Assembly (NCBI RefSeq): GCF_037392515.1 | Contig: NC_090295.1 | Coordinates: 12,543,001 to 12,607,000 of the forward strand | Reading direction: 5' to 3' | Origin: Haliotis asinina | Lineage: Eukaryota > Mollusca > Gastropoda > Lepetellida > Haliotidae | Length of the DNA stretch: 64,000 bases | In this document: in pieces, positions 8,059 to 63,846 of the stretch | Layout: every line of letters starts with the position of its first letter | Numbering within the stretch: the first letter of the stretch is position 1 | The notes under the pieces: model-generated | The model's input: only the letters and a program-made list of their open reading frames with translations | Database searches by the model: none | Told to the model about the DNA's origin: nothing | Translations under genes and position numbers: made by a program

Positions 8059-9614
8059 CTAGCAACCCGACGATGGTTGGCGGAATGTCTGTGGAGGTTC
8101 ATCATAGCGGACTTCATACGTCTGTGGACCTGACTCGTCACCGTATTCATTCCAAGATGCCCGACACACGGCCAGCAGGACGGCTGGAATCATATGACGT
8201 ATGGTTAATACCTTAAGTCAATATAATTATGAACAACAACCTCAGATATTAATAATATAATGCATCCATTTCATTATATACGACACGGTTGGCATATTCA
8301 AGATATGACTGCTTCTTTTAAATTGCGTGCCTCAGTGTTTTCCAAACTGCATGTGTATAGTGTCAAGCTGTCGTTAAGGAAATGACCTTTGACGGTTTAA
8401 GACCCACTTGATCCGTCACCATGTTCATTCTAAGATGCCAGTACGCCAGCCCTATCATATGAACACATGTTCACGTACACGTGAATTTGTCCTACCAAAC
8501 TGTTGTCCAATAACAAACTGAAATATTCATCATATGAGGCTGCATTTATATACAACGTATCGTGTATGTCTTTCAGATTTCCACATCATATCTTCCATGG
8601 TGTCAAGCAATTCTTTAGTCAGTGACTTTCGTCACTATGTTGATCACATCTAGCAAAAAATAAAAAATATAAATAAATAAATAAATAAATAAATAAATAA
8701 ATAAATAAATAAATAAATAAATAAATAAATAAACGAAAGAAGTGCATCAGACACAGTTACCGTCTTTTAATCGGGTGTCCTACTAACAATTCCAAAACGA
8801 GGCGGAATGCAAGAAAACAAACTTAAAGACAGACTTAAAAAAGTCTCAAAGAGAAATAGTAACAGTTTATATGATACTTTTTTTTAAAAAAACATAAATA
8901 TTCCACAGCCCACTACAAAAACTGACGTCCTTAGACTATCCCCCATCCTCGCTATAGGATAGAATTACTGCACCTCCATGGGGGTAGCATTCAGCAAAGC
9001 CATGGAGCATGGCTAAGTTAAGGCTGTGTGCAGCAGTTTAGATGTAATTAGTGAAAACGAAAATGCTAAACCTGTTTATGTTGTCGCTGTTGAGGCATGT
9101 ATATCTTAAAACGTTTCGCTTCGCTTATGACTATATGATGTTCAAAAATAATATTTCTGTGTCTCAGAGTGGGATATGTGGACACTTAGTGGCGTGATTA
9201 AAGAAAGCGCACATGTGTTTCACATGCATACCAGCGTCTTCCATTTTTCATTTTTCATATTTTTATGTATCTAACTCAAACAAGCACATACGTAGACACG
9301 CCTATAGCTAGAGACACTCGAACAGAACAAACATTTGGAGAGGTGGTGGTTCTTAGTAAGTATCCTGTAACATAGGCGAACAGGAATGAGAAGTTTTCGC
9401 ATTAAGAAGATAATCTGTATATTTTAAAACCGTTATTAGAAAAGAGTCACACATAATTAGACGTAAACATCTTTCCAGCGTATATGGAAATTGAAGTTAA
9501 TGTTGAATAACTACAGTAACTAGTTTTCTTGAATTTAATTTCAATAAACATTTCAATTTATACACAAAAATACCACAACTTACCAAGGAGGAGAACTTGT
9601 ACAAGCTTGTACAT
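8059..9614 (-). CDS. Secreted 51-residue acidic Tyr-containing peptide, copy 1
   Basis: I do not recognise the family. Exon 1 is 9584-9614 (31 nt, MYKLVQVLLL plus one base) and ends G|GTAAGT. Exon 2 is 8059-8183, after an ATTCCAG acceptor, and the phase-1 junction supplies an Ala codon. The product is 51 aa. Residues 1-19 form a signal peptide (core VLLLAVLLAV, likely cut after CRA). The mature part begins SWNEYGDESGPQTYEVRYDE and ends in a Cys. It is acidic, with spaced Tyr and Pro and no His tract. A TATA box lies 48 bp upstream of the ATG, and an AATAAA in the gene's orientation lies at 7971-7976. The near-identical copy at 14341-15225 differs by only a few residues, which supports a constrained gene. 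The intron is 1.4 kb and contains an (AAAT)n tract. Exon-intron layout matches the His-rich genes downstream. Function is unknown; a secreted peptide is the safe statement. Confidence 0.75.
8668..8732. repeat. (AAAT)n microsatellite
   Basis: About 16 pure tetranucleotide units within the intron of the 8059-9614 gene. Confidence 0.95.
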
Positions 9615-9661
9615 TGTGAAAAGGTTTGATGAATACTTGTTGTAGAAGACGACTGATAAGG

Positions 9662-9669
9662 TTTATATA
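9662..9669 (-). promoter_or_regulatory. TATA box of the 51-aa peptide gene, copy 1
   Basis: TATATAAA on the minus strand, 48 bp upstream of the ATG at 9614. The same box and spacing are kept in copy 2 at 15270-15277. Confidence 0.75.
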
Positions 9670-10140
9670 ATGACCGACCAGGATAAATATGCCAAGCACT
9701 GGGAAGTATAATCTGGTTATTCAACACCCTTCTTTCCTTTACCAGCTGCGAGTCTCGTGGTTTGCGGTTAGCAGTCTGTAGTTACAACTATGGTGTCATC
9801 AGTCCAAATTCCGTTGAAGGCGCCTTTCCTCCATTCTTTAATTTCATACCGCCCGTGAGATATAAAAATCTGTTCAATTTCTGAATCACGTGTGTCCGAC
9901 TGTGAGGAACGTGTTCGGCAAAGTAAGAAAGAAACGAAGAAAACGCAGCAAAGCCATGTGGTAGTATTTTTATAGGCTGTTTACATATACACGCACCTAG
10001 TACTGATCAGGAACATTTTCTGGCATTCTTTTAACAAATCAGCTCCCTAGGGAGAAGTCAACACATATGTTTTACGTACATCGAACAGCATGTTTCGATA
10101 CTTTATGGTATGTGCAATATAAATGAGTCTATTTACCTTT

Positions 10141-10238
10141 GACGGAAATGGACTTCACACAATGTACCCACACGGGGAATTGAACAGATTTTTTTGGCGT
10201 GACGAGCTGACGCCTTGACTACTTGGTCACCCCACCGT
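10141..10238 (-). repeat. SINE family 1, partial
   Basis: Keeps GGACTTCACACAATGTACCC and GTGACGAGCTGACGC in reverse orientation; the tail is missing. Confidence 0.65.
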
Positions 10239-10374
10239 GTGTAAACACACACAAAAAAAACACAATCAGTATCTGTTTCATCATTGTTCTAGGCCTTCTT
10301 AGTGTATCTTTTTTGTGTGTGGAACCTAATTAAACATGTAACAATTGTCCTCTTAAGTTACACAGTATTGTTAG

Positions 10375-10543
10375 GATGGTGGAGTAGCTCAGTAGTCGAA
10401 GCTTTCGCTAAACACATAAACGGCCGTGATTCGATTCCCCATAGTGGTGCAAATCGTGAAACCCAATTCTGGTGTCCCCCGCCATGATATTTGTGGAATA
10501 TTTCTAAAAACAGCTGAAAATAACATTCGCTCACTCAGAGGAA
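10375..10543 (+). repeat. SINE family 1
   Basis: Head GGTGGAGTAGCTCAGTAGTC, B box GATTCGATTCCCC, body CCCAATTCTGGTGTCCCCC and tail ending CGCTCACTC. Confidence 0.8.
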
Positions 10544-61598: not shown

Positions 61599-61662
61599 CC
61601 TGAAACTGAATAAGATTTATCGCAAGCTTTGCGAAATGATGAATTTATCCAGGCTGACGGTG

Positions 61663-61670
61663 TATTTAAG
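61663..61670 (-). promoter_or_regulatory. TATA-like element of member I
   Basis: CTTAAATA on the minus strand, 65 bp upstream of the ATG at 61598, exactly as in member H. Confidence 0.6.
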
Positions 61671-62667
61671 AGATATATATTACCTCTTACTGCGTGCGCA
61701 TGGTGACATGGACGTGTATATCTGAAGCTGTACCCCTTGAAATCAGGAGACCATGTCACGCACCATCATCCTTGAGCCGATTAAACAGTAGGGTACCATA
61801 TCCACTGAACTGGATCAAGTATCAGTTGAAATATATATGAATAAATATAACTATGTGCATACACGATATGATGGATTTGTCTCATGTAGCAGAAACATAT
61901 GTTTAGAACTTAATTTTTTTAGTTTTTTTAAAATTTTTATTTGTTATTTTAATTTTATTTTATTTGGCTTTTATTTCCAACAAACGCCATGTCAGTTTTG
62001 CTTCAGGTGGTCAGAAATACTGTTGAGACACCTCATGGTTTCCACCTACGTCTGAATGAGTAAACTTCCTATCACGTGGTCAGCTCCAGGGGAGATGCGA
62101 GATACACTTTGCAATTCATTCAGTCATGCTTTCGATTTTCGCACGTTTTCTTTATGGGAGGTGGAAACAGTTTCTTTTGAATATCCCAGTCATCTTCTGT
62201 AAGATATATATTACTTTAGTGGAATACGATATGTGAGTATTGTTATTTAAGGAACGTTTTTAAAATGACCTGGGTTGTCCTCATGCCTTGGAACAGTTGG
62301 TGTATAACAGGGCAGAACTGCAGACAGAGGGCAGTTTGATGAATGAGAATTTAAATTTAAGAATGAGTCTACATCATACATGGATATTTATGATTGGTTT
62401 CCTTTGAAACCACTATGAGTGACATACAACTGTTCTAAGCATTAACCTCCATACCCTCATTTTGCACATACTCAAATTTTAAAAACATGCATATCATGAG
62501 GGCATTGACAGGGACGAGTTTAAGGCAGCTTACGTCGCCCTATGGCTGATGGTCTTCATCGCTTTCAGCATAGGTCTATAAGACCTATAAGTATAAGAGT
62601 CACGATCCTCTTTGCGCAAAGATTGCTTGGACTGGTTTATTTGTAGTGTAACGTCGAAATCAAGCTG

Positions 62668-62800
62668 CCTGACGGCGGCGTTCTGTAAATGATGGAGTCT
62701 GGACCAGCTAACCCAGTGTTCAACACCATGAGCATCGTTCTACGCAACTGGGGTATGACTACATGTGTCGCCCCATACGATAAGCATGGGATCTTGGAGT
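62668..62800 (+). repeat. SINE family 2, partial
   Basis: GATGGAGTCTGGACCAGCTA, ACCATGAGCATCGTTC, ACATGTGTCGCCCCATACG and ATAAGCATGGGATC. Confidence 0.7.
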
Positions 62801-63658
62801 AGATGCAAGTGGATCCAGGTGTGACGAAATTTACTCGTGATACTTTCAATGAATGAGTTGTTTCGAATTCAAATTGGAATCCATAGCAGGATCGAGGATC
62901 AGAGGCCACAATGCGTTTCTTGTCTTTGAACTACCGCCATCGTTATGTCCATCAACCAATGACTCTGTGTTGCACTTTCTGTCGAGATGCTGACGTAATA
63001 TTACTGATAGTGGTGTTCAGAGACATTCGCACTGAAACGCATTATGCATGAATGGTCCCTATTGGACTCCTGCTGTATTAGGAATGGTACAAAAATGAAA
63101 AATAAAAAAACAAAACAAAAAACGTTTGCGATGGGTCTAGATTTTTTATTGCGTTGTTTAACTTGTGAAAGGGTTTGATCCACATGTTGAAGTTCAGTTC
63201 CTCTGACAACCAACGTATGAAGCCAATACATATTGTCGTATCATTCACACATACAGATATTGCCTATGTGACGTTAAATATTAACTCACTCACTCACTTA
63301 CACAAAAAGAATTAGGAAATGATTGCTATGTATCAACATTTGTATTTCACTGACACGGTCGTTATCCATTCAAAATGCTTCTCGTGTTGTACAGTCTGAA
63401 AAAAATATAAGTAGAAGTTAACCGAATAAGCATATACGTCATTTGTACGACGTAAATATGATAATATATCAAAATATGTCTAAATGTTATTGTTAACGAG
63501 TTTACGCTAAACACCTAGGTTCGTTTTTCTCATGAGAGATGTACATGTGAAGCACATGTTGGTGTTACCCTCCGTACAGTTTATGCCTTGGGTACTGAGT
63601 ATTGTTTCAGACACCAAGCAGTTGAACTGAGCAACAGTAAAAATGTACAGACTACCTT

Positions 63659-63846
63659 TCATTTCTTTCCAAAGGATCCGAAGGATCCGAAACCACCAAA
63701 GGAACTCAGTCCGGACGAAGAGAAACTTGAGGGAAAGAAACTCTTGAACTTGCTGGAGCCAAAACCGCTACTGCTGCTGCTGCTGTGACGGTGATGACTG
63801 TGTCGGTGATGACAACAGCTCTCAACAGCACTAAATGTGAGGGCAA
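63659..63846 (-). CDS. Secreted CCHHRH / Phe-Gly-rich small protein, member J (exon 2 only)
   Basis: Exon 2 follows the acceptor CGCTTTTTCTAG. The first exon is not found between 63847 and 64000 and must lie outside the window, so the gene is partial. The visible part is 61 codons plus a split codon. It reads ALTFSAVES (end of a signal peptide), CCHHRHSHHRH, six Ser, GFGSSKFKSFFPSSFSSSG, LSSFGGFGSFGSFGKK and stop. It is the partner of member G: the same CC-His head and KFKSFFPSSF core, but one extra GSF unit and no C-terminal extension. The Ser run lies in AGC-type triplets. Secreted, unknown function. Confidence 0.78.

Follow-up and report, generated by a model that had tools for sequence, protein, structure and literature searches.

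How could secreted proteins with very different mature parts come to share one exon design? The question is raised by a run of small genes in a 64,000-nucleotide stretch of the Haliotis asinina genome (contig NC_090295.1, positions 12,543,001 to 12,607,000 of the forward strand; the window), for which the first-pass annotation proposed a single founding gene whose signal peptide was kept while the mature parts were replaced. The genes apparently belong to a lineage-specific superfamily of small secreted proteins, probably constituting a disordered metal-binding extracellular material, whose second exon would be homogenised by gene conversion; the chances of this explanation as a whole seem evenly balanced. 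Three features of the sequence carry it: the anatomy of the genes, the grouping of the family on one chromosome together with a core and a C-terminal signature found in most of the proteins, and a likeness of the second exons that exceeds the likeness of their flanks.

All 12 genes predicted in the window could be re-derived from the raw sequence, and the anatomy assigned to them stands. Each has a GT donor, an AG acceptor, and a first coding exon of 31-43 nt (31, 31, 37, 37, 37, 37, 37, 37, 40, 43, 43, and 40 nt in G1 to G12), which stops one base into a codon and thereby defines a phase-1 intron; the second exon supplies the rest of the hydrophobic stretch of the signal peptide, followed by the mature protein. 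The predicted proteins likewise support the secreted nature and low complexity ascribed to them, and exon 1 of the last gene, said to lie outside the window, was located beyond its right end. Two points of the earlier description are altered. The two-exon design applies to 11 genes, as G8 has three coding exons; and the cluster contains, besides the 12 members reported, a thirteenth (G0) to the left, which brings it to at least 13 genes. The features are the following (window coordinates):

-6637 to -91: G0, left of the window.
9584..9614, minus strand: G1 exon 1, 31 nt, MYKLVQVLLL.
8059..8183, minus strand: G1 exon 2, acidic Tyr peptide; precursor of 51 aa with SSGC end.
15195..15225, minus strand: G2 exon 1, 31 nt.
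14341..14465, minus strand: G2 exon 2, near-copy of G1.
20556..20592, minus strand: G3 exon 1, 37 nt.
18984..19423, minus strand: G3 exon 2, His tract, Ser tract, EDYPVPLPIP core, LPIVLTTAG end.
30367..30403, minus strand: G4 exon 1, 37 nt.
28966..29573, minus strand: G4 exon 2, His tract, Ser/Gly tract, EYVVVED end.
32741..32777, plus strand: G5 exon 1, 37 nt.
34304..34704, plus strand: G5 exon 2, His/Ser, EDYPIPIPVP core, DAALLQALINGRK end.
40694..40730, minus strand: G6 exon 1, 37 nt.
39291..39730, minus strand: G6 exon 2, His/Ser, EDYPIPIPVP core, GALLQALLAGGKK end.
45636..45672, minus strand: G7 exon 1, 37 nt.
44629..45053, minus strand: G7 exon 2, sister of G6.
49397..49433, plus strand: G8 exon 1, 37 nt.
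50072..50384, plus strand: G8 exon 2, His/Lys tract, acidic Ser tract.
50385..53251, plus strand: second intron of G8, mostly an 85-bp minisatellite (50446-52639).
53252..53447, plus strand: G8 exon 3, Ser/Gly/Tyr tract, TEYVVYDD end (compare EYVVVED of G4).
55367..55406, minus strand: G9 exon 1, 40 nt.
54810..55012, minus strand: G9 exon 2, CCHHRH, Phe/Gly/Ser, without a stop after FGKK.
57350..57392, minus strand: G10 exon 1, 43 nt.
56567..56847, minus strand: G10 exon 2, Ser/Cys, ESYPLFIPVP core, GLLAGLLG end.
61556..61598, minus strand: G11 exon 1, 43 nt.
60852..61123, minus strand: G11 exon 2, sister of G10.
64792-64753, minus strand: G12 exon 1, 40 nt, 0.75 kb beyond the window.
63659..63846, minus strand: G12 exon 2, sister of G9, SFGKK end.

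From G0 to G12 the strands run + - - - - + - - + - - - -, with only two divergent neighbours. G8 (49397-53447) is the sole window gene with three coding exons; its sister G4 has no intron at the site of the minisatellite intron, so that either G8 acquired an intron around the repeat or G4 lost one. The 3' end of G9 is uncertain because no stop codon follows FGKK, unlike in its sister G12: the frame reads on for ten residues past the point where G12 stops, and a GTATG there could be a splice donor. Additional exon-1 candidates (at 31294, 35158, and others) were dropped, having no partner or a better competitor.

The splice junctions of the 13 genes are predictions, and the gene models are well supported, lying far beyond chance expectation. 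A joint rule composed from these same genes combines a signal-like phase-1 exon 1 and a GTRAG or GTATG donor with a same-strand, pyrimidine-preceded AG and a biased exon 2 within 6.5 kb. In the window it returned 12 exon-1 candidates with a partner, comprising ten true first exons (nine matched to their own exon 2, that of G10 paired only with the exon 2 of a neighbour), one alternative start, and one unrelated candidate; G4 and G12 were missed. The same rule gave 0-1 candidates (mean 0.25) in eight first-order Markov copies, two in the 93 kb of the left flank, and one in the 99 kb of the right flank. A TATAWA box 50-95 nt upstream of the ATG occurs in 9/13 genes here, and in 23/29 when a second cluster (see below) is added, against a background of 4.6% among 4000 ATGs from a 264-kb region; the enrichment therefore provides independent support for the gene models. 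Exon 1 has a length of 3n+1 in 29/29 models, a count that arises partly by construction because the scan required that phase.

The window is part of contig 16 (C16), which at 49.7 Mb makes up 4.35% of a genome of 1.143 Gb in 159 contigs. About 56 loci of the family, summed over sequence searches, a core-pattern search, and one gene found by reading (9442875), lie on this one chromosome in four clusters and two single loci spread over 13 Mb:

0.29-0.33 Mb: six loci.
4.59 Mb: one locus.
9.38-9.55 Mb: about 23 loci (the second cluster).
9.97-10.03 Mb: twelve loci.
Window cluster: thirteen loci.
13.22 Mb: one locus.

With G6 exon 2 as the query, 53 matches were found genome-wide at E<=10 (150 of 235 candidates scored), and all 14 of those with E<1e-10 are on C16, nine of them in the second cluster. 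A short member of that cluster placed 37/41 matches on C16, the other four having E 0.37 or worse, while a still shorter member (9.99 Mb) placed 32/32 there, including G3 (6.6e-8) and G0 (2.4e-7). The exact degenerate core pattern YPIPIP(V/I/M)P is found at 23 places, 21 of which are on C16, each within an already known cluster or locus. Among the 17 genes of the second cluster that were read, 16 have the same exon design, with a first exon of 28-40 nt (four identified by a relaxed scan or by reading); exon 1 of 9511130 was not found by scan, relaxed scan, or reading. The second cluster also holds a G1-type gene with a weak score (E 0.21, 49% identity), which has a RYDEPP stretch and the exon design of G1; a common array is therefore favoured.

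Altogether 37 loci were read (13 in the window cluster, 17 in the second cluster, and seven elsewhere; one only for the end of exon 2), a count from which out-of-frame scan rows and loci known solely as matches are excluded. The mature parts had been described as greatly different. Most are in fact related, with a core of the type P-(I/V/L/M)-(P/F)-(I/L)-P in 29/37 proteins, mostly as S(E/D)YPIPIPVP or HGIPIPIPYP, that is, of the (Y/I)PIPIPxP type; the description may hold for the pairs G1/G2, G4/G8, and G9/G12. A C-terminal Gly, alone or followed by 1-3 Lys/Arg residues, terminates 32/37 proteins, including 29/29 of those bearing the core (in the window cluster G0, G3, G5, G6, G7, G10, and G11). 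In 5000 residue shuffles, the signature appeared on average in 5.2 of the 37 and never in more than 14; the shuffles were applied after residue 20 and, as rows outside the window start at exon 2, set aside a bit more than the signal there. When the proteins are collapsed to distinct 12-residue ends, 19/24 retain it. Several sequence types are represented among the Gly-type ends (LLQALINAGK, LPIVLTTAG, GLLAGLLG, SFGKK, SGCSG, and LSAYG), and the signature therefore outlives sequence change. C-terminal Gly or Gly-Lys/Arg is the classical amidation signal, and the mature proteins are probably amidated, as in amidated peptide precursors, which have such predicted ends in common with them. The N-terminal arm varies: in short members it has a few Cys/His residues, and in others it carries His runs as long as 15 residues; the His/Ser/Gly arms are the parts that expand and shrink.

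Could the window instead hold two to four unrelated secreted-protein families side by side, with an exon design that merely follows a general tendency? The available text of PMC1626468 reports a general excess of phase-1 introns close to the cleavage sites of signal peptides, and because of this excess a common junction alone is not proof of kinship; of the founding-gene proposal, a tandem origin from a secreted-protein founder is retained for most members, while the shared junction on which it leaned is weak evidence by itself. Several observations weigh against a single family. Eight of the 37 proteins lack the core: G1, G2, G4, G8, G9, and G12, and outside the window 9406540 and 9442875. 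Position, exon design, and likeness of the signal peptide would be the only ties of G1/G2, G4/G8, and G9/G12 to the rest, and G1, G2, G4, G8, and G9 as predicted have no amidation-type end. The G9 query matched only G9 and G12 on C16; outside this contig it had two weak hits, with E 0.65 and 3.6. Two of the core-pattern places are on other chromosomes (C2 and C10), and the backwards-pattern control gave equal totals (14 and 9, 23 in all, recorded without places), because of which the total proves nothing and only the positions are informative. His/Ser composition also yields strong false matches, on C6 (7.3e-10, with seven stops), on C12 (1.1e-7, with a stop), and on C1. Nonetheless, the G1-type gene in the second cluster argues against unrelated families, as do the VICAVSYA-H junction of G4/G8, which is of the same type as VIAALAYA-H of G6/G7, and the similar TATA spacing and exon-1 length across the groups; besides, the core family, whose members match one another by sequence, would be left untouched. 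A patchwork of separate families is rather unlikely.

Under the favoured explanation, a common superfamily, the two exons would not have evolved alike. In all 14 sister pairs compared, the second exons resemble each other more closely than the first exons do. In nine of them (G6/G7, G10/G11, G1/G2, the three among 9418664/9427659/9434174, 9445648/9457478, 9465631/9472709, and 9516011/9518597), exon 2 is 93-100% identical versus 59-94% for exon 1; the introns next to exon 2 are barely alignable (z 1-4 versus shuffles) except in G1/G2, and the likeness begins at the splice acceptor and ends at or near the stop codon. The older divergences are G0/G3, G5/G6, 9409404/9414090, G4/G8 (exon 2 75% versus exon 1 68% from the spliced reading), and G9/G12. 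As a separate observation, the exon-2 products of the neighbours 9418664, 9427659, and 9434174 are identical over 97 residues, and their first exons differ (MKYSLILVFV, MRFSLIIVFV, and MNFSLILVLV).

The likeness extends to silent positions. Four-fold sites changed at 0/34, 3-4/58, 2/27, and 7/59, as opposed to differences of 22-31% in the alignable flanks of the same pairs; the corresponding values are 8/58 versus 29-37% for G6/G7 and 0/21 versus 13% for G1/G2. The clearest case is 9516011/9518597, in which 66 codons contain one amino-acid and no silent change (0/34 four-fold sites versus 31% in the 3' flank, Fisher p 2.4e-5). The silent-site test covered 11 comparisons, not all independent, in eight pairs, of which three come from a single trio of genes. 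It used only clearly aligned flanks, excluding the 3' flank of 9427659/9434174 and the upstream flank of 9445648/9457478; p was below 0.05 in 9/11. Protein-level selection does not keep silent sites, and for this reason gene conversion confined to exon 2 is invoked as the cause of the likeness in recent pairs; strong selection on the silent sites of exon 2 is the alternative. The pattern has its exceptions. For G1/G2 (0.072) and the upstream flank of 9465631/9472709 (0.066) p exceeds 0.05, and G0/G3, G9/G12, and G4/G8 present no recent homogenisation. The intron ends of G1/G2 are also 86-97% identical, and because of this the pair may be a plain recent duplication. As for the earlier proposal of a preserved signal peptide and a replaced mature part, recent copies exhibit the reverse; over longer times it may apply to the core-less groups G1/G2, G4/G8, and G9/G12.

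The following mechanism would account for these features. Each gene would be transcribed from its own, usually TATA-bearing, promoter, the tiny exon 1 encoding half of the signal peptide and exon 2 the mature protein. A typical mature protein is expected to be disordered and to consist of a His- and/or Cys-rich N-terminal arm, Ser/Gly tracts, the core, and a short, hydrophobic C-terminal stretch with a Gly or Gly-Lys/Arg terminus that is probably amidated. The family would grow by tandem duplication and the arms by repeat expansion, while gene conversion might homogenise exon 2 between neighbours. The product would most likely be a bulk extracellular material from a gland or a cuticle-forming epithelium, in which the His tracts could bind metal ions, the Ser/Gly tracts could serve as flexible, possibly phosphorylated spacers, and the stiff Pro/Ile core together with the C-terminal helix could let chains associate. 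A bolder version, which we consider somewhat improbable, holds that the roughly 56 loci encode amidated His/Ser-rich secreted peptides self-assembling into a metal-hardened material, the mature exon being handed like a cassette from one gene to another, each of which retains its own promoter and signal exon; if so, one product would be re-expressible under many controls.

The probable amides and the Cys/His residues bring to mind a defensive role, in which the genes would encode a fast-duplicating family of antimicrobial peptides, rich in His and Cys and amidated at the C terminus, that are released into mucus or gut and act by binding metal and by means of an amphipathic C-terminal segment. 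The Gly or Gly-Lys/Arg end of 32/37 proteins agrees with this, as do the short members in which Cys and His cluster (65-79 aa as precursors; 55-62 aa as exon-2 products), the many copies with variable arms, and the low-confidence AlphaFold model (mean pLDDT 50.5), in which a disordered chain carries a single short helix at its C terminus. However, the core region is Ser-rich and contains acidic residues, with few basic ones outside the His/Arg tracts, many members are long repeats unlike familiar antimicrobial peptides, and the mature exons of recent copies are homogenised rather than diversified; we therefore regard defence peptides, though a main rival, as unlikely. A special case of the material explanation assigns the proteins to the matrix of radula, shell, operculum, or periostracum, where Ser-phosphate and His would act as ligands for iron, zinc, or calcium and would template chitin or make it harder. 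S-x-E/D sites are present in 9/13 window-cluster proteins (1 to 11 each), and the Gly/Ser-rich and His-rich composition parallels that described in the available text on chiton RTMP1 (PMC6351634). The Trp/Phe-rich region of RTMP1 is missing here, though, and neither a chitin-binding nor any other Pfam domain was detected in the five proteins scanned, which leaves this narrower assignment doubtful, at about the same level as defence. RNA-seq data from abalone tissues are publicly available.

As the first-pass annotation had supposed, a described family with this combination of features was not found. Protein-database searches with G6 residues 76-158, with G0, and with a 10-sequence alignment returned no homologue from a collection that may be poor in mollusc proteins; in a Pfam scan of 5/13 cluster proteins, every match fell short of the curated cut-offs; and no such family was found by composition, tissue, or printed motif in a literature whose coverage leaves out most subscription journals and supplementary files. 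Among known systems, the vertebrate SCPP genes are clustered, descend from one founder, and encode disordered secreted phosphoproteins with S-x-E motifs. Set beside the present genes by description rather than by sequence, they are alike in clustering, disorder, and S-x-E motifs and unlike in intron phase (0 there, 1 here). Conotoxin-like superfamilies comprise many copies encoding a signal peptide and short Cys-bearing mature peptides with C-terminal amidation, in which the signal is kept and the mature part varied. The Haliotis genes resemble them in copy number, signal peptide, short Cys-bearing members, and amidation-type ends; in contrast, it is the mature exon that stays constant in their recent copies, and exon 1 that varies.

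In genomic design the family most resembles the silkmoth chorion locus, without any sequence kinship found. The available text on that locus (PMC4639761) describes 127 genes at one chromosomal locus in two segments, with a minor exon 1 of about 50 nt and a major exon 2 of 300-500 nt, encoding structural proteins with conserved central domains, and reports gene conversion. Both combine a small first exon with a large second one (the three-exon G8 excepted), and both have a pattern of concerted evolution, present here in most, not all, pairs and with conversion as its presumed cause. Unlike in chorion, no Pfam family, including the chorion A/B central domain, reaches the cut-off in the five proteins scanned, the A/B divergent pair arrangement is absent, and the genes form several clusters over 13 Mb and have His/Ser arms and amidation-type ends. 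Chiton RTMP1, as far as described in the available text (PMC6351634), is one 539-aa protein with a signal sequence, Gly/Ser-rich repeats, a His-rich region, and predicted phospho-serines. The signal sequence and composition recur here, whereas the 13 predicted proteins have no Trp/Phe-rich chitin-binding-like region (only G9/G12 contain a Phe/Gly stretch), and the single chiton protein contrasts with about 56 loci here, whose short products mostly have a PIPIP-type core. The available parts of the limpet-tooth (PMC9263180) and scaly-foot snail (PMC7142155) papers contain nothing usable for comparison.

The family is thus large, has no description or homologue that could be found, and is placed by core-based searches almost entirely on one chromosome. 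It may offer a molluscan parallel to insect chorion loci and a natural experiment in which the mature exons are kept alike despite diverging promoters and signal exons. The combination of His tracts, Ser tracts, and probable C-terminal amides could be relevant to metal-binding biomaterials or defence peptides.

Repeats occupy several of the intergenic stretches. A 137-bp satellite of 27 copies with 98% match lies at 23016-26714 between G3 and G4, and a 101/196-bp repeat of about 3.6 double units at 16060-16770 between G2 and G3. Trinucleotide arrays at 13035-14072 and 48558-49137 generate long spurious poly-Ser, poly-Thr, and poly-Leu frames, which compete with real genes in low-complexity searches; the poly-Ser and poly-Thr frames at these positions were rejected as genes. 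Elsewhere in the genome, egg-lysin-like exons are located on contig 14 (26.67-26.92 Mb) as two adjoining sets and further pieces, two of which contain stops. Lysin of this type points to a vetigastropod host, probably an abalone or a near relative. The egg-lysin family (Pfam PF01303) has six matches above the cut-off in this genome and none in 14 control genomes, and one translated lysin-like exon matches abalone sperm lysin in PDB with an E of 1.8e-10.

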